Under the pieces are notes generated by a model. It ran no database searches and had not been told where the DNA came from. It saw only the letters and a program-made list of their open reading frames with translations. DNA of 64,000 nt from Caenorhabditis elegans (Eukaryota > Nematoda > Chromadorea > Rhabditida > Rhabditidae). The stretch is from the NCBI RefSeq assembly GCF_000002985.6, contig NC_003280.10, positions 11,094,501 to 11,158,500 of the forward strand, written 5' to 3'. Position 1 is the first letter of the stretch. The number at the start of each line of letters is the position of its first letter. This document shows, piece by piece, positions 28,058-44,942 of the stretch. Position numbers and translations under genes: made by a program.

Positions 28058-28288
28058 AGTAATAAAAATAAAAATAAAAATAAAAATAAAAATAAAAATA
28101 AAAATAAAAATAAAAATAAAAATAAAAATAAAAATAAAAATAAAAATAAAAATAAAAATAAAAATAAAAATAAAAATAAAAATAAAAATAAAAATAAAAA
28201 TAAAAATAAAAATAAAAATAAAAATAAAAAAAATAATAAAAATAAAAATAAAAATAAAAATAAAAATAAAAATAAATTTTTATTTTTA

Positions 28289-28319
<31 letters not shown>

Positions 28320-28322
28320 TTT
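28058..28322. repeat. (TAAAAA)n microsatellite followed by its inverted (TTTTTA)n copy
   Basis: About 215 bp of TAAAAA units with one interruption (AAAAAAATAATAAA near 28230) is followed by about 45 bp of TTTTTA units. The open frames on both strands (Lys/Asn or Tyr/Phe repeats) are artefacts of the simple repeat. Confidence 0.97.
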
Positions 28323-28324
28323 AA

Positions 28325-29980
28325 ACATAAAATTTGCTACAAAATGGCTACGGGAATTTCTAAAAAATTTAGTTTGAAGAGATTTATGAATTTTCAAAGT
28401 TTGGAAAATCTATTAATTTTGCATATAATTTTTATAAATTCTGAAAGAACATAAAATTTGCTACAAAATGGCTACGGGAATTTCTAAAAAATTTAGTTTG
28501 AAGACAGAAATTAATTTTCAAAGTTTGGAAAATCTATTAATTTTACATATAAATTGTGGTCTACAAGGTATGACTGAAAATTCACTTTTTCTGCTTGAAC
28601 TTGGCGGTTTCAAAATTTTTTGAAATTCTGTTTTTAAATTTTGAAAGAACATAAAATTTGCTACAAAATGGCTCCGGGAATTTCTAAAAAATTTAGTTTG
28701 AAGCCAGAAATTAATTTTCAAAGTTTGGAAAATCTATTAATTTTGCATATAATTTTTATAAATTCTGAAAGAACATAAAATTTGCTACATAATGGCTACG
28801 GGAATTTCTAAAAAAGTTAGTTTGAAGCCAGAAATTAATTTTCAAAGTTTGGAAAATCTATTAATTTTGCATATAAATTGTGGTCTACAAGGTATGACTG
28901 AAAATTCACTTTTTCTGCTTGAACTTGGCGGTTTCGAATTTTTTTGAAATTCTGTTTTCAAATTCTGAAAGAACATAAAATTTGCTACAAAATGGTTACG
29001 GGAATTTTTGAAAAAGTTAGTTTGAAGCCAGAAATTAATTTTCAAAGTTTGGAAAATCTATTAATTTTGCATATAAATTGTGGTCTACAAGGTATGACTG
29101 AAAATTCACTTTTTCTGCTTGAACTTGGCGGTTTCAAAATCTTTTGAAATTCTGTTTTTAAATTTTGAAAGAACATAAAATTTGCTACAAAATGGCTACG
29201 GGAATTTCTAAAAAATTTAGTTTGAAGACAGAAATTAATTTTCAAAGTTTGGAAAATCTATTAATTTTGCATATAATTTTTATAAATTCTGAAAGAACAT
29301 AAAATTTGCTACAAAATGGCTACGGGAATTTCTAAAAAATTTAGTTTGAAGACAGAAATTAATTTTCAAAGTTTGGAAAATCTATTAATTTTGCATATAA
29401 TTTTTATAAATTCTGAAAGAACATAAAATTTGCTACAAAATGGCTACGGGAATTTCTAAAAAATTTAGTTTGAAGACAGAAATTAATTTTCAAAGTTTGG
29501 AAAATCTATTAATTTTGCATATAATTTTTATAAATTCTGAAAGAACATAAAATTTGCTACAAAATGGCTACGGGAATTTCTAAAAAATTTAGAAGACAGA
29601 AATTAATTTTCAAAGTTTGGAAAATCTATTAATTTTGCATATAATTTTTATAAATTCTGAAAGAACATAAAATTTGCTACAAAATGGCTACGGGAATTTC
29701 TAAAAAAGTTAGTTTGAAGCCAGAAATGAATTTTCAAAGTTTGGAAAATCTATTAATTTTGCATATAAATTGTGGTCTACAAGGTATGACTGAAAATTCA
29801 CTTTTTCTGCTTGAACTTGGCGGTTTCAAAATTTTTTGAAATTCTGTTTTTAAATTTTGAAAGAACATAAAATTTGCTACAAAATGGCTACGGGAATTTC
29901 TAAAAAAGTTAGTTTGAAGAGATTTATGAATTTTCAAAGTTTCGAAAATCCACCTATTTTTGCCTATTAATGGTAGTTTT
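28325..29980. repeat. Tandem array with two unit lengths, 124 bp and 200 bp
   Basis: The anchor ACATAAAATTTGCTAC recurs at 28325, 28449, 28649, 28773, 28973, 29173, 29297, 29421, 29545, 29665 and 29865. Spacings are therefore 124, 200, 124, 200, 200, 124, 124, 124, 120 and 200. The long unit equals the short one plus a 76-bp block containing GGTCTACAAGGTATGACTG; the 120-bp unit lacks four bases (TTTG). A diverged copy continues to about 30180. The short frames inside are repeat artefacts. Confidence 0.95.
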
Positions 29981-36347: not shown

Positions 36348-38084
36348 TCAGAAAGTGCCGATGCTCTTCGTGTCGGAGATGAATCCAAATTTCTGAAAAT
36401 AATAATTATTAATGAGCCATTAAAATAATTGCCTAACCGATGACGTGTCCATAGGCTCTGCTGGGGCGTTGTTGACTCTGAGAGCATTGAAAATCCTGGA
36501 CATATCGACAACCTGGATTTCTCCCGAGCTGATCTTCTGTCGTAACTGCATAAGAATCACTCCGAGAACGTTGCGTCCTTGTGCAAAAACTGGGCAGTGT
36601 TGAACTGTTGTCTTGTTAAGTGGGAAAGTAGCAGGAATTTTCAAATGTTTCACACCAGCTTTCGATAAATCATCCAACCATTTTTTAATCGCCGGGATCG
36701 TACATCCTGTTCCGTATATACTGTCACGAGCGAACGCATGGACCAGAATGTTATCTCCGCTTTCTTTGAGAGCTTCGCGCAAATGAGCAGACTGGGTGAC
36801 TTTCGCATGAAGAGCTTTTTGGATCGTCTCGAGACCTTTGCTGTTCCTCCATTCATCCACCTTCTCCTTGCTGATATTCGCTGCTTTGATTATATCCTTA
36901 GCTAGTGCGCTGTGCGACTTTTTCTCCGCATCTTCGATAGTTTCAACGATAGGTTTTCCGTTCTCATCACGAACACCTCTGTTCAATTTGTCGCTTGATA
37001 CTCCAGTCAAATCAGTGACTTTGCAAATTTGGTAGTAGTGGTCGCAGCTTCCATAGATCTTATTGTCGATGAGAACTGGGAACTGAAACAAAAAATTTAA
37101 AAGTAATTAATTAATCTTTTAAAAAATGTGTCCCTACATTGTGTTTAGTGGTGAAAACACTGTCGAATCCGTGGAAAGCTGTGATATTCTCGGAAGAAAC
37201 ATTCAGAGTGATGGCAGGAGAATCATCAGGAAGATGAACATATGGAATATCATCCTTATTGTTTGATGGTTTCGGAGCGCCATTGAATCGTCCTCCTCGA
37301 TTGAAACCTCCACGACCTCTTCCTCCGCTTCCTCTCCCGCGACCACGTCCACCTCCTCCTCCACGAGCAGTTTGATTTTGAAGTCCGTTGGTCTCCCAAC
37401 TGTTACCTTCCAATCGGTGGTTTGGCATCTTCTGAACGCCTTTTGTTCCTCTTTCTGAAAATTAACAATTTTTTTTCAGAAAGATACGGATGGAAAACTC
37501 ACTATTAACGGTCTTCACCGTTCCACGAGCCACTTTGAATATTGGTTTTGGAGCTGCCTCCGCGATTTTCGACACACTAGGTTTCTCGTGTGGTTTGCTC
37601 GGATCGATTGTGACCAAATGGAACTGCTGTGATCCTGACGACCAAGCTTTATTAGGCCTCTGATGATGTCTCCGATATGGTTTTTGCACTGGTTTTGACG
37701 TAGTTTTTGCTGCTGTGCTTTTTGCTGGATAGTACGGTGCCGCTTCGTACGCCTGAAAAATATAACAATTAGTAAACCAATAATGTGGGTAGGAGAAGAA
37801 GAGAAAGTAGAAAAGTGTTGGGTACTTTTTCTCCTCTTCCGCTCAAAATATTGGTAAAATATTAAAATATTCACCTGGGCAGAAGATGAGAAAAAGTTTG
37901 GTGTCCCACTGAGTGATGGATAAACTGGATTATACTGCTGAAAATTCAAATAATAGAAATTGTTTTTCGGAAGATTAATTAAAACCTCTTGAGATTGGGC
38001 CGATGGAGCCCAAGAGTCATTTCCAGAACTCTGCCCGTGGCTGTAATAGTTGTTATTCCAGGGATATGAACCCGAATATGCCAT
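36348..38084 (-). CDS. RGG-box protein with a NADAR (YbiA-like) domain
   Basis: Six exons (37986-38084, 37875-37937, 37503-37752, 37138-37454, 36438-37082, 36348-36392) give 472 aa. The N-terminal third is Tyr/Ser/Gln-rich and disordered; an RGG/RG tract lies near residues 169-195 (GRGRGRGSGGRGRGGFNRGG), suggesting RNA binding. The C-terminal half matches NADAR/YbiA: FHGFDSVFTTKHN, then YGSCDHYYQICK (aligning with the family's SxEHYxQ), RDSIYGTGC (DRIWGIG) and QGRNVLGVILMQLRQK (GxNxLGxxLMxVR). NADAR enzymes cleave N-glycosidic bonds, including ADP-ribose from guanine. Here the family Glu of EHYxQ is Asp. The last short intron (36393-36437) may be retained, giving a variant C terminus that ends at about 36420. 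It converges with the plus-strand gene ending at 36198. Confidence 0.85.
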
Positions 38085-38524: not shown

Positions 38525-40427
38525 TTACAGCTTTCCGTAGCACTTGGATACTTGAGTCAAATATTCCGAGTATTTCTTGGCGCGGAGCTTCTGAAGAGCA
38601 AGAATATCGTCCTGTTGTTTTCCCTTTGGAAGATCTTCGTCTGGTAAACAGCTGAAAAGGAAGCCAATTGTGAGAAAGAAAGAAGAAACCAGAAATAATT
38701 ACATATTTTCGCGTTCACAATGCTTTGTGAACTTTGAGCTCATCGCGGAGAGCTGATCATGGCCAGCTGTAGAGCAGACAGTACGGCGGGAGCGAGAAGC
38801 AATCACTGAAATTTGGCTCTTAAATTTGATAAATTAATGAAAAATGTATTACCATGTCGCCTCTTGTGATTGTGTCCAGTATGGTCAACATTTGGGTCAT
38901 TTGGATCATGATCATCAGATCTACGACGACGATGATTGTGTCCAGTGTGGTCGATGGTAGTGTCACTCGGGTCATCTGAAATTAATTTACTTTGTCGACG
39001 AACACCTACACCACAATGGCTCACCATCCTGATCTCTCCTACGTCTATGATTATGTCCAGTGTGATCAACATTCGGATCATTCGGATCATGATCCTCTGA
39101 TCTACGACGACGGTGGTTATGCCCGGTGTGATCAATGGTAGTGTCACTTGGGTCATCTAAAAATAAGAATTTTTTAAGGTGAAGTTCTCATTCAGCACCA
39201 ACCATCATGGTTTCTCTTGCGTCTATGGTGGTTATGCCCAATGTGATCTACATTTGGATCGTTTGGGTCATGATCATCAGATCTGCGACGGCGGTGGTTA
39301 TGACCGGTGTGATCAATGGTAGTGTCACTTGGGTCATCTGAAAATCCACAGAATAATAAATCGTAGCTTGTCAAATGCTAAAGGACTTAAAAAACTATCT
39401 AACAGGAAATCAAGGTTAAGACTGCAGGTAAGGGTAGATGGAAATTCAAATTTTCGAGGTGGAGGTACAGAAAGCCTTACCATCATGGTTTCTCTTGCGT
39501 CTATGATTATGCCCTGTGTGATCTACATTGGGATCGTTTGGATCATGATCATCCGATCTACGACGGCGGTGATTGTGTCCAGTGTGGTCGATGGTTGTGT
39601 CAGTCGGATCATCTGAAAATAGATTTTGTTTAGGTATCGAAATTTTTGTTAACGAAGTCTTGCTCTGACTTAGTATGAACTATGATGCTCTTGGCATTGC
39701 CTGATCTTTAAAAATTTCCTTACCATCTTGGTTTCTCTTGCGTCTATGATTGTGTCTAGTGTGGTCGATGGTAGTGTCACTTGGGTCATCTGTAACTGAA
39801 CAGGTTGAACTTCAATAAATAATAAAAATCTTTTACCATCGATACTTCTCTTTACTCTATGGTTATGGCCAGTATGATCAACATTAGGATCATTCGGATC
39901 GTGATCTCCATTCCTTCGGACTCTTCCATGATGATCAACATGTGTTCCGTGCTTCTTACGATCCATATTTTCCCGATGCTTCATATCATTGCCATGATGA
40001 CCCTCATGATTGTGATGTCTTCTTCTTCTTGCATGATCATTAGTGTCCTCTTGATCCTCAGTAGGTTCTCCCATGTCACCATCGAGAACTGTTCCTGAAA
40101 AAATGACAGATTATTTTTTTGTTGGTTTTTTTATGCCTGAAATACTAAAAACTAACTCTTCGGCCTGCTCTTCTCCTCGACATACTTTCTGCAAGCAGTC
40201 ACAGCCTCCTTATACTCATTGGAAACCTTTTGGAAGTCCTTCCAGCTCTTTTCTAGCTCCTCCTTGGTCTCGCAGACAGCTTGCGAAGTTTTTTGTTCGT
40301 GGCATTCTCGTTCCAGCTGCTTCTCTCGTTTGTTGGTAGCCATACGGAGAATTGTATCAGGGGAGCATTCAAATGCGATGGTTGAGATGACCAGTAAACT
40401 GGCCAATAAGGAGATCCGAACAATCAT
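38525..40427 (-). CDS. Secreted His-rich repeat protein made of duplicated exons
   Basis: Nine exons (40157-40427, 39837-40094, 39724-39789, 39481-39612, 39203-39337, 39025-39156, 38853-38975, 38703-38805, 38525-38651) close to 448 aa. A signal peptide (MIVRISLLASLLVISTIAF) precedes a Cys-containing charged helical domain (ECSPDTILRM to VTACRKYVEE). Exons 2-7 encode repeats built from DPSDTTIDHTGHNH and DPNDPNVDHTGHNH, separated by RRRR, RRKR or KR. Full repeat exons are 132 or 135 bp, all phase 1-1. The C-terminal domain again has Cys (VCSTAG, HCERE, ICLPDED, KCYGKL), perhaps pairing with the N-terminal ones. The HxHxH clusters suggest Zn/Cu binding; the basic sites suggest proprotein-convertase cleavage. 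Family not recognised. An acceptor CATTTTAG lies one base before the ATG. Confidence 0.85.
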
Positions 40428-42847
40428 CCTAAAATGGAATGTCTTCAATTGAGTTGCAAGTTTAAGAGCTTATATCTACACCAGGGGAGGCAATTGCCGT
40501 TTGCAAATTTTTTGCCGACAAATTTGGTAAATCGGCAAATGGCGAATTGCCGATTTGCCGGAAAATTTCAACTCCTGCAAATTGCCGAATTGTCTTTTGC
40601 CGGATATCAGATTTGCCGGAAACACTTAAAACACGTACAATTTTGCCGATTGAAATTGAAATTCTGAAATTTTCAAAAAAAAAGTCCAAAACCCAAATTT
40701 GCCGAAAATATTGGGCAATTGCCGTTTTTCCGACAAATTCGACAAATCGGCATTTTATCGGCTTGCCGATTTGCCGGAAATTTCAATTCCGGCAATTCGC
40801 CGCCTACCTCTGATCTACACATATTTAAAGTTTAGTCAAAATGATTGGGAACTGAAAAAAAAAAATATAGAAGGTTTATTCAATCCCAGAGAGTACTGAT
40901 TTTGTTAAAAATTGGGCAACTTCAAACATAAACAAGCTTATCAACTGATAGAAAACGTTTTTTGATAAACGATCAAAAAGGGCTGGTCAAACATTTTTGA
41001 TTGATTTGAGAAACTCTAGCAAGTAACAGTAGTAAAAAAAGTAATTGAAAACAAATTTCGGCTGTTGGACACATGCGAGCATGCTTTTATTGCCCACCGG
41101 AAGAGCCCAGTAGTGGTTTTCAAGTTTTTTTCTTCATGAGAAATGAATGGGGGGGGGGGTATGAAGGAGTTAATTGATATTTTCAGGTCTAGAAGATTTA
41201 GGGAAAATAAAAAATAAATGAAATATAATTAGAATGATTCAAGTGTACTAGAATAATCTAAACTCGAAAAATAAGAAATTCCTATCTCGAATGCACTTTT
41301 TAAACGGCCTGAAAACCTGACAAGATATTGTCGGAAAATGACAGTTGGCACAATTTCGTGGAATGATGTAATTCAAAAGAGCAAAATGACATCGAAATTC
41401 GATTTTGATTGGCTCTCGAAAAACCCAAGACACAAGTGCTCAATCAATCAAAATCTGGCTCAATAGATCTTCTTCTTTTCTCGTGTAATTCAGTATTGCG
41501 GGAAAAAAAAGAGGAAGAGAGGTAGTTTGTTTTGGTTTTCGTTTGGACCAATTTGCTTGAGTTGTCAGGTCGAATCAACGGGAAAGAAGTGTGAGTTGAC
41601 AATATTAAAGAGCAAAAGGGAGAAGCATATCAACAAGTAGATGAGTCAATAGCATGTGATGATCATGATAGACGAATTATTTTGGGAGAGAAGATAAGAA
41701 ATTACAAGGTTCGAGGGTTTTCAAAAATTGATGGAAAGAATTCAAACAACAAACATTCTGGCAGATATTTTGGAAAATCTTGTTCTGAAAAAACCTGAAT
41801 TTATTTTTAATGGAGTTGCAAATTAACAACTTTTCGGTCTCGTAAAAAAGTGGCCTAAATTTGAGAAACATTTTGCAGAATTTTCTTAGAAACTCCAGGA
41901 TTTGGCTGAAGTAGTTTTATTTTAAGATTTTAAATTCTAAAAACGATAAAATATAAAATTTGAAACTGGGGTGGGCGGCAAACGATTTTTTTCTCGACAA
42001 ATCGGTGATTTTTGCCGGAATTGAAAACTTCCGGCAAATCGGCAGACCGGCAAATTGCCGATTTGCCTAGTTTGCCGAAAAAACGGCAAATGCCAAAAAT
42101 TTTCGGCAAATTGTGGTTTTTTACATTTTTGTTTTGGAAATTTCAGTATTTCAATTTTAATCGACAAAATTGTAGGCATCCTATGAACGTTCGTACATCT
42201 TTTGTGAAAAGTAAGCAAATTCAATGAAAATATCTACGGGAAAAAAAATTCAGAAAGGCACAGTTTTAAGTGGCCCCGAAAAAAATTCCTCAGAACATTT
42301 CCGGCAAATGAAAATTTTCGGCAAATCTGCAAACCGGCATTAGCCGATTTGCCGAGTTGTCCGACAAAAAAAATTCGGTATTCTGGTTTTGGTAAATTTT
42401 CAATTTTTTATAAACTTTTGTCAAAAAATGACCAAGTTGTCTAGATTCCAAATGAACACTTTAAGTTTTCAGGTTTCGCGAAAAAGTTTGGCGCATGCCA
42501 TTACCAAAAGGGTTTCCTATTAAAAACGGCAGAATTTTCAATTTCACCTGTTGGGACACATAAATTAATTCAAATTGAGAATTAATGTCGAACATTAAAG
42601 GTCGAAAATCAAATGTTTAGATTATAGGCACTCGGGCCTTCAAGGTGGCCTACGCCTGCCTCGCCGGAAGTATTGGAATTGGGACTGCTGAGAAAAATAG
42701 GTCGGCAGGCGCGGTCGCCTCAAGAAAATGTAAGAGCCTTCAAAAAACTTGTTCTAATGTGAAACTACATACTTTTTTTTCAAAATCTGATTTCTGTATA
42801 TTTTTGTTTTTAATAAAAATATGATAAGTCTTCAAACAAAAACCTTT
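40428..42847. repeat. Gene-free stretch with dispersed GCCGGCAAATCGGCAA repeats
   Basis: Three copies of one family: 40478-40815, 41965-42200 and 42290-42375, each rich in TTGCCGATTTGCCGGAA and its complement. A tract of 11 G lies at 41149-41159. At 42628-42730 begins another dispersed family with CCTACGCCTGCCTCGCC and GGCAGGCGCGG. Otherwise AT-rich with no supported gene. Confidence 0.6.
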
Positions 42848-43073
42848 ATGGTGCGTCCATAGTCTGCGGAAAAAAACAAGGAGTTTCTCGCTTTGTTATT
42901 GGTCAATTTCAAAATAGTGGGCGTGTTCAACCAATTAGAGGCTGTAAAATTTTAAGCTGAGCAATGGGAAAACAAGAAACAACAGCTGATTGGTTGGCCA
43001 CACCTACTTTTTTGAATTTTGAGGAAAAAAAAGCGAGGAACTCCGGTTTTTCCGCAGACTATGGACGCACCAT
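42848..43073. mobile_element. Non-autonomous DNA transposon (MITE) with 27-bp TIRs
   Basis: The left end ATGGTGCGTCCATAGTCTGC continues GGAAAAA and is matched exactly inverted at the right end (TTTTTCCGCAGACTATGGAC then GCACCAT). The interior of about 170 bp is partly self-complementary (ATTGGTC, CCAATTAGAGG, GATTGGTTGG) and has no transposase frame. Confidence 0.85.
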
Positions 43074-43130
43074 TAAAAAATGTAAAAACCTCAAAAAAAA
43101 GGAAAAAAGTCCAGAAAAAACAAACAAAGT

Positions 43131-43966
43131 AGGTCACGTCATGACCTACTTTTTTAGTAGGTCACGTTAAAAATTAGGTCATGACCTACTTTTTTAGTAG
43201 GTCACGTTAAAAATTAGGTCATGACCTACTTTTTTTAGTAGGTCACGTTAAAAATTAGGTCATGACCTACTTTTTTTAGTAGGTCACGTTAAAAAGTAGG
43301 TCATGACCTACTTTTTTTAGTAGGTCACGTTAAAAATTAGGTCATGACCTACTTTTTTTAGTAGGTCACGTTAAAAAGTAGGTCATGACCTACTTTTTTT
43401 AGTAGGTCACGTTAAAAAAAAGGTCATGACCTACTTTTTTTAGTAGGTCACGTTAAAAAAAAAGGTCATGACCTACTTTTTTTAGTAGGTCATGTTAAAA
43501 AAAGGTCATGACCTACTTTTTTAGTAGGTCACGTTAAAAATTAGGTCATGACCTACTTTTTTTAGTAGGTCACGTTAAAAATTAGGTCATGACCTACTTT
43601 TTTTAGTAGGTCACGTTAAAAATTAGGTCATGACCTACTTTTTTTAGTAGGTCACGTTAAAAAGTAGGTCATGACCTACTTTTTTTAGTAGGTCACGTTA
43701 AAAAAAAGGTCATGACCTACTTTTTTTAGTAGGTCACGTTAAAAAAAAAGGTCATGACCTACTTTTTTTAGTAGGTCATGTTAAAAAAAGGTCATGACCT
43801 ACTTTTTTTAGTAGGTCACGTTAAAAAGTAGGTCATGACCTACTTTTTTAGTAGGTCACGTTAAAAATTAGGTCATGACCTACTTTTTTTAGTAGGTCAC
43901 GTTAAAAAGTAGGTCATTACCTACTTTTTTTAAAAGTAGGTCACGTTAAAAAGTAGGTCATGACAA
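43131..43966. repeat. 41-bp satellite carrying palindromic AGGTCATGACCT sites
   Basis: About 20 tandem units of roughly 41 bp; each has AGGTCATGACCT within the larger palindrome GTAGGTCATGACCTAC, then TTTTTTTAGTAGGTCACGTT and an AAAAA spacer. Variants include TCATTACC in place of TCATGACC at about 43912. GACCTACT and AGTAGGTC are also inverted around the T run, so each unit can form a hairpin. Confidence 0.95.
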
Positions 43967-44942
43967 AAAAAAAATTCCGAAAAAAATTCCGAACAATTTT
44001 GAAAAATTTTCCAAAAAAAATTTCGGAAAATATCATAAGCATATCATAATATCATAAGGTCTTATGTTTTTCCCAAAGTGATCTCTACAATTTGCATATC
44101 GTTGACATTTCTGTAAGAAAAACATCTTATCATCAATAATCACCATAAATTAAAGTCCATACTGCAAGGGTTTCTATTGAGAAATTCGCTGGAAAATAAC
44201 TAGAAAACATAAAAATTAATTAGAACAAGCAAGGACGTCAATATAAAATGTTTTCTACGAGAACGAAAAATTTCCGGCTGATGACCTCAATGCTTTCGCT
44301 TGACCGGGTCGTGTTTGAATTGACTCTTCGAACAAAATTGAGCTAAAATTACATAGTGATTCATAGATTTTTCTGTTTATTTGAACTAATAAAACTGATA
44401 TCGAGTTTAAAAACTCCTGCCTCATACCTACCTACTTACTTTATTTTTGACACAAATTCACAAATTTTACCGTTTCAATTAGCTTGTGAAAAGATCATAT
44501 AAAATATGCACTTTGTATGTACGCACGTAGGCACACGGAAGGCCTAGGTTGCCTTGAAGGCAGGCGTGTAGGCATTTTTGTACCTACCCGGTTGTAGAGC
44601 AACAACCAACAGAAAACACTCTATGAATATTGTTAACCTGATTGCTTCGAAATACAAATGAATTAGCCCGAATATTTTAAAAGCAGACTTTTGCCAAAAG
44701 TTTGTAAAAATTCATATTTCGTACTATCAACACTACTTACTGGAAAAAAGGGTTCCTGGTCTAATTAACAAAACATGTGAGCACCCAAATTTTCTCAGAA
44801 TCTTGTTTTGTCATTTCATTAAAAACAAATGAAGTCTTTGTTTTCAGAGCAGACATACATCTGAGTACGATTGTAGTTTGTATGTAGGTGTTGGAAATTA
44901 AAAAAACACATATTTTCAATTTTATAAAAACCCAATTAAAAG
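43967..44942. other. AT-rich intergenic region
   Basis: No gene is seen. A copy of the TAGGCAGGC dispersed repeat lies at about 44520-44590 (GTAGGCACACGG, AAGGCAGGCGTGTAGGCA). Otherwise AT-rich. Confidence 0.5.

Follow-up and report, generated by a model that had tools for sequence, protein, structure and literature searches.

A gene on chromosome II of C. elegans is predicted to encode a secreted, tandemly repetitive polyprotein that would release metal-binding, His-rich peptides, a reading to which we assign a probability of about 0.5. The gene is located on the minus strand of the window, i.e., the whole stretch of 64,000 nucleotides that was analyzed (C2:11094501-11158500, chromosome II), where it spans positions 40427 down to 38525. 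An open gene model, a tract of repeats, the placement of basic sites around these repeats and a codon pattern of purifying selection were observed in the analysis, and the order of domains in the encoded protein, namely a signal-peptide-like start, a domain with four cysteines, the repeat tract and a second domain with four cysteines, suggests a precursor that is exported and cut into pieces.

Gene Structure and Repeat Tract

Nine exons with ordinary splice signals can be joined into a single open frame of 448 residues plus a stop codon (Table 1). This predicted gene model is phase-consistent throughout, with exons 3-7 each starting and finishing in phase 1, and the gene looks real on the evidence of its sequence. 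The first-pass annotation had placed the gene at 38853..40094, a span that is too small because exon 1 and exons 8-9 lie outside it. By inspection, the N-terminus resembles a signal peptide, and the mean hydropathy of residues 5-19 is 2.41. The eight cysteines are divided equally between the two ends of the protein (positions 21, 42, 52, and 79, and positions 383, 402, 408, and 444). Inspection also identified TTTTAG one base ahead of the ATG as a possible trans-splice acceptor. An AATAAA signal starts approximately 160 bases past the stop codon in exon 9. In the 2,073 bp upstream of the gene there are two copies of TGATAA, the intestinal GATA word, a number that is not above that in shuffled sequences (mean 2.61).

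Table 1. Exons of the predicted repeat gene and the features that they carry (window positions).
Feature	Position	Strand	Content
Exon 1	40157..40427	-	Start codon, signal-peptide-like start, first four-Cys domain, most of RPKR site
Exon 2	39837..40094	-	Acidic linker, RRRR site, His-rich segment (39913-40017), RVRR site
Exon 2, end		-	Repeat unit 1 (B type, core 39859-39879), then RVKR
Exon 3 (66 bp)	39724..39789	-	Core DHTRHNH (39746-39766) and tail of repeat unit 2
Exon 4 (132 bp)	39481..39612	-	Cores of units 3 (A, 39569-39589) and 4 (B, 39503-39523)
Exon 5 (135 bp)	39203..39337	-	Cores of units 5 (A, 39294-39314) and 6 (B, 39228-39248)
Exon 6 (132 bp)	39025..39156	-	Cores of units 7 (A, 39113-39133) and 8 (B, 39047-39067)
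Exon 7 (123 bp)	38853..38975	-	Cores of units 9 (A, 38932-38952) and 10 (B, 38866-38886)
Exon 8	38703..38805	-	RSRR site, start of second four-Cys domain (Cys 383, 402)
Exon 9	38525..38651	-	Rest of second four-Cys domain (Cys 408, 444), stop codon

The repeat tract contains ten DHxxHNH cores, eight of which are exactly DHTGHNH (at aa 163, 207, 229, 251, 296, 318, 340, and 362), the variants being DHTRHNH at aa 185 and DHIGHNH at aa 273. When the residues of the protein were shuffled 2,000 times, DHTGHNH never appeared and GHNH appeared at most twice. Each core is followed by a basic tail (RVKR, RRKR, RRRR, HRRKR, or KRRH), so that the original count of ten copies, eight of them exact, with basic tails is borne out. 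The repeat units are 22 residues long (one is 23) and comprise two alternating types, A (xxDDDPSDTTIDHTGHNH) and B (SDDHDPNDPNVDHTGHNH), with five units each. Exons 4-7 each carry the cores of one A and B pair, i.e., two 22-aa units rather than the one repeat per exon that had been proposed, and a single core is found both in exon 3, which is half-length, and at the end of exon 2, where the unit is of the B type. Unit 2, in exon 3, combines an A-type head with an RRKR tail as in B units 4 and 6, and unit 6, in exon 5, has one His in addition to its variant core DHIGHNH. The description of the repeat exons as 132/135 bp and phase 1-1 applies to the lengths of exons 4-6 (132/135/132 bp) and to the phase of exons 3-7, but not to the lengths of exon 3 (66 bp) and exon 7 (123 bp).

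A second His-rich stretch (aa 117-151), which is unlike the repeats, is located on the same strand in the linker encoded by exon 2 and would form a separate cleavage product. A search of the genome with the back-translated GHNH+Arg pattern identified 24 exact places, seven of which are in the gene and the other 17 dispersed over the genome; the pattern in reverse, used as a control, occurs at eight places genome-wide. The exact 21-base DNA consensus of the core has no match in the genome, which is in line with codon drift between the copies.

Cleavage Sites and Predicted Peptides

The motif R-X-[K/R]-R occurs 13 times in the protein; among 2,000 shuffles of its residues, the average was 1.15 and no shuffle had more than 5. 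It follows nine of the ten units, in one case as RVKR with a non-basic residue inside, and is also located after the first Cys domain (RPKR), in the linker (RRRR and RVRR) and before the second Cys domain (RSRR). Thus, the sites stand after nine of the ten repeats and at both junctions between a Cys domain and the tract, a placement that strengthens, as a prediction, the idea of a polypeptide precursor advanced in the first-pass annotation. Many similar units and regular protease sites within a single precursor, the features of this general kind of protein, are both present. On the other hand, unit 10 is followed by KRRH, in which R-X-[K/R]-R is absent, and this copy without a site counts against the polyprotein view.

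Counted up to the final His of its core, each of the ten units is an 18-mer, and these predicted peptides carry a net charge of -4 to -6 (His excluded) and three to four His each. Cutting at the 13 sites, followed by removal of terminal K/R only, would yield seven 18-mers, together with a peptide of 19 residues from unit 6 (owing to its extra His), one of 20 residues from unit 1 (in which R and V stay) and one of 28 residues from unit 10. The calculated monoisotopic masses are 2026.800 for NHDDDPSDTTIDHTGHNH and 2021.785 for the B-type peptide, to which methyl-His would add 14.016. The peptide start predicted earlier, SDDHDPNDP, describes most of the B-type units, but the A type starts with xxDDDP. 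All units end with HNH, and a glycine that could serve for amidation precedes the basic site in none of the ten copies.

Divergence of the Copies and Purifying Selection

The DNA of the repeat exons had been described as nearly identical; however, exons 4-7 are only 74-85% identical in all six pairwise comparisons. The introns between the repeat-bearing exons (introns 2-6; 46-143 bp) are unmatched, in that none of their ten pairs aligned better than shuffled controls by the set margin. Among all eight introns, 3 of 28 pairs (1-5, 2-7, and 7-8) beat the shuffled controls, and each of these involves intron 1, 7, or 8. At the two-fold-degenerate codons of the core, 113 of 225 same-residue pairs differ (0.502), which corresponds to saturation, as the expectation for random pairs calculated from the codon use of the whole gene is 0.43-0.48. 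Recent exon duplication with near-identical DNA was rejected because of these saturated codons and unlike introns. Whole-exon duplication in itself fits the exon phases and the half-length exon 3, but the recent growth of the gene that had been deduced from it is unsupported, since the DNA is not near-identical.

Despite this divergence in DNA, 68 of the 70 core residues are unchanged, whereas neutral simulations (n = 20,000), in which each copy received its observed number of nucleotide changes at random positions, gave a mean of 20.3 changes and a minimum of 12; these figures are guides, because the shuffles and simulations assume a star-like null, ignore gene conversion and take the copies as independent, which they are not. 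The Asp, the three His and the Asn of the core are invariant in all ten copies. With the extra His codon of unit 6 removed ahead of the codon comparison, the pN/pS ratio (Nei-Gojobori) is 0.02 for the core. The ratio for whole units is 0.13 within type A, 0.12 within type B and 0.26 between the types; that for the spacer is 0.13 within types and 0.26 over all pairs. The basic tails are more variable than the core, with ratios of 0.42 within types and 0.51 over all pairs. As the two-fold codons are saturated and the introns are unlike, yet nearly all core residues have been kept, purifying selection seems to preserve the peptide in each copy.

Some columns of the spacer are unsaturated, the GAT codon at column 3 being identical in all ten copies, which suggests that some portions of the unit may be of more recent origin or may have undergone conversion. 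An alternative is a young array homogenized by exon duplication or gene conversion, in which identity of amino acids would exist without function; in its favor, exons 4-6 are alike in length and phase, and several spacer codons of the A type do not vary among the A copies. Nevertheless, such an origin is very improbable, because half of the two-fold pairs in the core differ while the core residues are retained and because introns 2-6 do not match in any pair.

Search for Relatives

Neither the whole protein nor either of its Cys domains has a Pfam match above the cut-off. Matches below the cut-off to LMBR1, TPD52, C2c1_helical, OATP, and T4_y05I_C (E 0.024-0.92) were dismissed as chance, and PDB sequence matches at E 0.2 and 0.39 were dismissed as unconvincing. 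The two four-Cys domains do not align to each other by BLASTP. An AlphaFold model of the N-terminal domain, calculated from the single sequence, comprises helices at residues 23-48 and 55-87 with low confidence (mean pLDDT 70.5, pTM 0.37).

Among the best candidates scored in genome searches, all eight matches to the whole protein are located in its own gene and the C-terminal domain likewise matches its own gene only, whereas the N-terminal domain has matches at four other places (E 0.12-1.85). The best of these (L012; C1:4020388-4020525, E 0.12) is ungapped and has the two middle cysteines (C-x9-C), a Trp and SNE in common with the N-terminal domain; the L012 open frame of 139 residues offers no partner for the outer two cysteines. 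L012 may be a distant relative of this domain, and no clear paralogue was found among the candidates scored. A search of viral contigs with aa 196-372 gave one pattern match and no relative by tblastn. DHTGHNH was not found in the literature searched, and no His-rich worm polyprotein is mentioned in the titles and abstract openings of that literature. The view that no such worm family has been described therefore stands insofar as no Pfam family exceeded the cut-off; however, the style of the precursor has a worm precedent in the nematode polyprotein allergens (PMC3079579).

Genomic Surroundings

An exon encoding a NADAR domain adjoins the gene downstream (window 36423-37461, minus strand; PF08719, E 1.2e-15), and a Gly/Arg-rich exon precedes it. 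F40F8.11 is described as a C. elegans gene with a NADAR domain, and the downstream neighbor fits F40F8.11 (PMC7853720). Genes named in the literature on F40F8 include pqm-1, F40F8.5 and F40F8.11; F40F8.5, which is included in lists related to longevity (PMC2872873, PMC3468884), could be the repeat gene or a different one. When nine open reading frames of the window were compared with Pfam, matches other than NADAR were to complex I 51K, ribosomal S4/S9, adenylate kinase, and the arrestin C-terminal domain; two frames had no match and two had matches only below the cut-off.

The window also contains several repetitive stretches. A 36-copy AATAAA array (98% matches) followed by approximately eight ATTTTT copies occupies positions 28061-28323 and reads as an open (KN)n frame. 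It is followed at positions 28324-29000, and perhaps beyond this end of the scan, by a nested tandem array with a period of 324 and 124-bp repeats inside (approximately 95% matches). Inverted-repeat arms with a high content of TTTGCCG/CGGCAAA words are located upstream of the repeat gene, at positions 40508-42371, and positions 40001-44000 contain 18 of the window's 21 words of this kind.

Proposed Function and Alternative Readings

In the proposed polyprotein, the signal peptide would direct the protein into the secretory pathway, and a furin-type proprotein convertase would cut after R-X-[K/R]-R, as suggested by the motif and its placement. The worm proprotein convertases are given as KPC-1, EGL-3, AEX-5, and BLI-4 (PMC4196577). 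Cleavage would free the N-terminal and C-terminal four-Cys domains and approximately ten peptides, alternating between types A and B, and trimming of the basic residues would leave 18-mers with four to six net negative charges (His excluded). Metal binding by the DHxxHxH cluster is plausible, and the terminal D-H-x-x-H-x-H may thus be a ligand for Zn(II)/Cu(II), ten copies of which, all encoded by one mRNA, would serve to buffer metal outside cells, to carry it or to withhold it. The variability of the tails is as expected if only R-X-[K/R]-R matters, and equally so if the tails are mere charge. The conserved spacers (pN/pS 0.13 within types) are not obviously needed by a pure metal buffer.

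The selection on the spacer would be accommodated by a neuropeptide-like or hormone precursor of the unamidated kind, in which the invariant C-terminal heptad would serve for receptor recognition and the His would not serve for metal. As in FLP precursors, multiple peptides share a C-terminal motif that hardly varies and differ more in their N-terminal part. We regard a receptor ligand of this kind as rather unlikely, because all ten copies lack a glycine ahead of the basic site, the peptides are strongly acidic and His-rich, two extra Cys domains are present, and the sites comprise three to four basic residues or RVKR, as opposed to the FLP table, in which flanks of KR, R, or K predominate (PMC4196577). 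In another explanation, an uncut His/Asp/Arg polyampholyte would function in, for example, the extracellular matrix or granules, its Arg clusters binding anionic polymers and its His clusters binding metal. Such a protein would explain why acidic and basic blocks alternate and why amino-acid changes are frequent in the basic tails. It too is unlikely in our judgment, because charge alone predicts neither the retention of R-X-[K/R]-R after nine of the ten copies, one of them as RVKR, nor the presence of RPKR and RSRR at the borders of the Cys domains.

A more doubtful proposal, which builds on the metal-binding polyprotein, is that the gene encodes a natural substrate array of METL-9. The ten GHNH/RHNH cores would be 1-methylated on the second His of the motif, tuning the hold of the 18-mers on zinc, and methylation would precede or follow the furin-type cut and take place within the secretory or the lysosomal system. 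Human METTL9 methylates the second His of HxH and favors A, N, G, S, or T at x, G, H, R, Q, N, K, F, or M at position -3, and G, Q, T, K, N, H, M, R, or S at position +1 (PMC13027442). All ten cores fit these human lists, with Gly (nine) or Arg (one) at -3, Asn at x (ten), and Arg (eight), His (one), or Lys (one) at +1; an eleventh HNH, at aa 118, falls outside the lists, its +1 residue being Glu. This agreement is no proof, because recombinant worm METL-9 was robust on ZIP7 fragments and inactive on ARMC6 and DNAJB12 (PMC12269839). METTL9-class motifs are also common, being found in about 11% of mouse proteins (PMC7873184). A DREV/METTL9 gene is located at one place in the genome (PF05219, three pieces, C6:5177882-5179001, best E 2.2e-54), as judged by a model that also matches 8 of 14 control genomes, over the cut-off in two.

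The requirement that enzyme and substrate occupy one compartment is the weak point of the METL-9 proposal. Worm METL-9 expressed in HEK293T cells was lysosomal and, on infection, became less so and more nuclear (PMC10397248), and mammalian METTL9 reaches ER-facing regions of SLC39A7 (PMC13027442). No clear signal peptide was seen in the METL-9 exons that were read; the first Met is directly preceded by an in-frame hydrophobic segment, for which the open stretch provides no Met. Worm METL-9 has been reported as a DNA 6mA enzyme (PMC10397248), whereas another group reported no DNA methylation and robust methylation of human ZIP7 fragments (PMC12269839); the available portions of these two reports name no natural worm substrate. 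If the METL-9 proposal is true, the gene would provide a secreted metallopeptide in which modification of a histidine determines the affinity for metal, as well as a candidate explanation at the protein level for the immune phenotype of METL-9, which has been attributed to DNA 6mA. Ten fitting sites in a single protein would make a direct assay easy and offer a concrete test in the METL-9 dispute.

Comparison with Known Precursors

Histatins, HRG, and the poly-His peptides of vipers are secreted, His-rich and likely to bind Zn or Cu. The predicted worm peptides differ from these in being acidic and in being arranged in a polyprotein layout. The METTL9 substrates SLC39A7/ZIP7 and S100A9 resemble the repeats in that HxH with a small x lies in flexible sequence (PMC13027442). 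By contrast, ZIP7 is a zinc transporter and the other substrate is S100A9, whereas here the motif occurs once per repeat of a predicted secreted precursor.

FLP precursors share with the repeat gene a signal peptide (predicted in the latter), related peptides with a common C-terminal motif, and basic sites (PMC4196577). They differ in that KR flanks prevail (108 of the 184 basic flanks in the FLP table, which lists no four-residue basic site) and in that the peptides are amidated (PMC4196577), whereas the gene described here has R-X-[K/R]-R and acidic, His-rich peptides. The combination of an amidation glycine and a C-terminal RF was found in none of the ten units, and in place of KR or single basic flanks the tract contains RRRR, RRKR, RVKR, HRRKR, and KRRH. 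The cleavage sites of the repeat gene thus resemble those of the nematode polyprotein allergens more than those of FLP neuropeptides.

Tandemly repetitive polyproteins have been called rare, the best-characterized being the filaggrins and the nematode allergens (PMC3079579). The latter (NPA/ABA-1) are nematode precursors of repeated units that are cut at regularly spaced K/R-X-K/R-R sites (PMC3079579), the same class of site as in the repeat gene. When the whole protein and its two end domains were compared with Pfam up to an E value of 10, no NPA family appeared. The repeat region of NPA/ABA-1 contains very small or no introns (PMC3079579), compared with 46-143 bp in the gene described here. 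Moreover, the NPA unit is a helical, lipid-binding protein, with seven helices in ABA-1A (PMC3079579), whereas the unit here is 22 aa long. If the repeat gene does encode a polyprotein, it would be one with very small units, in which a metal-ligand motif replaces the lipid-binding fold, in a genetic model animal.
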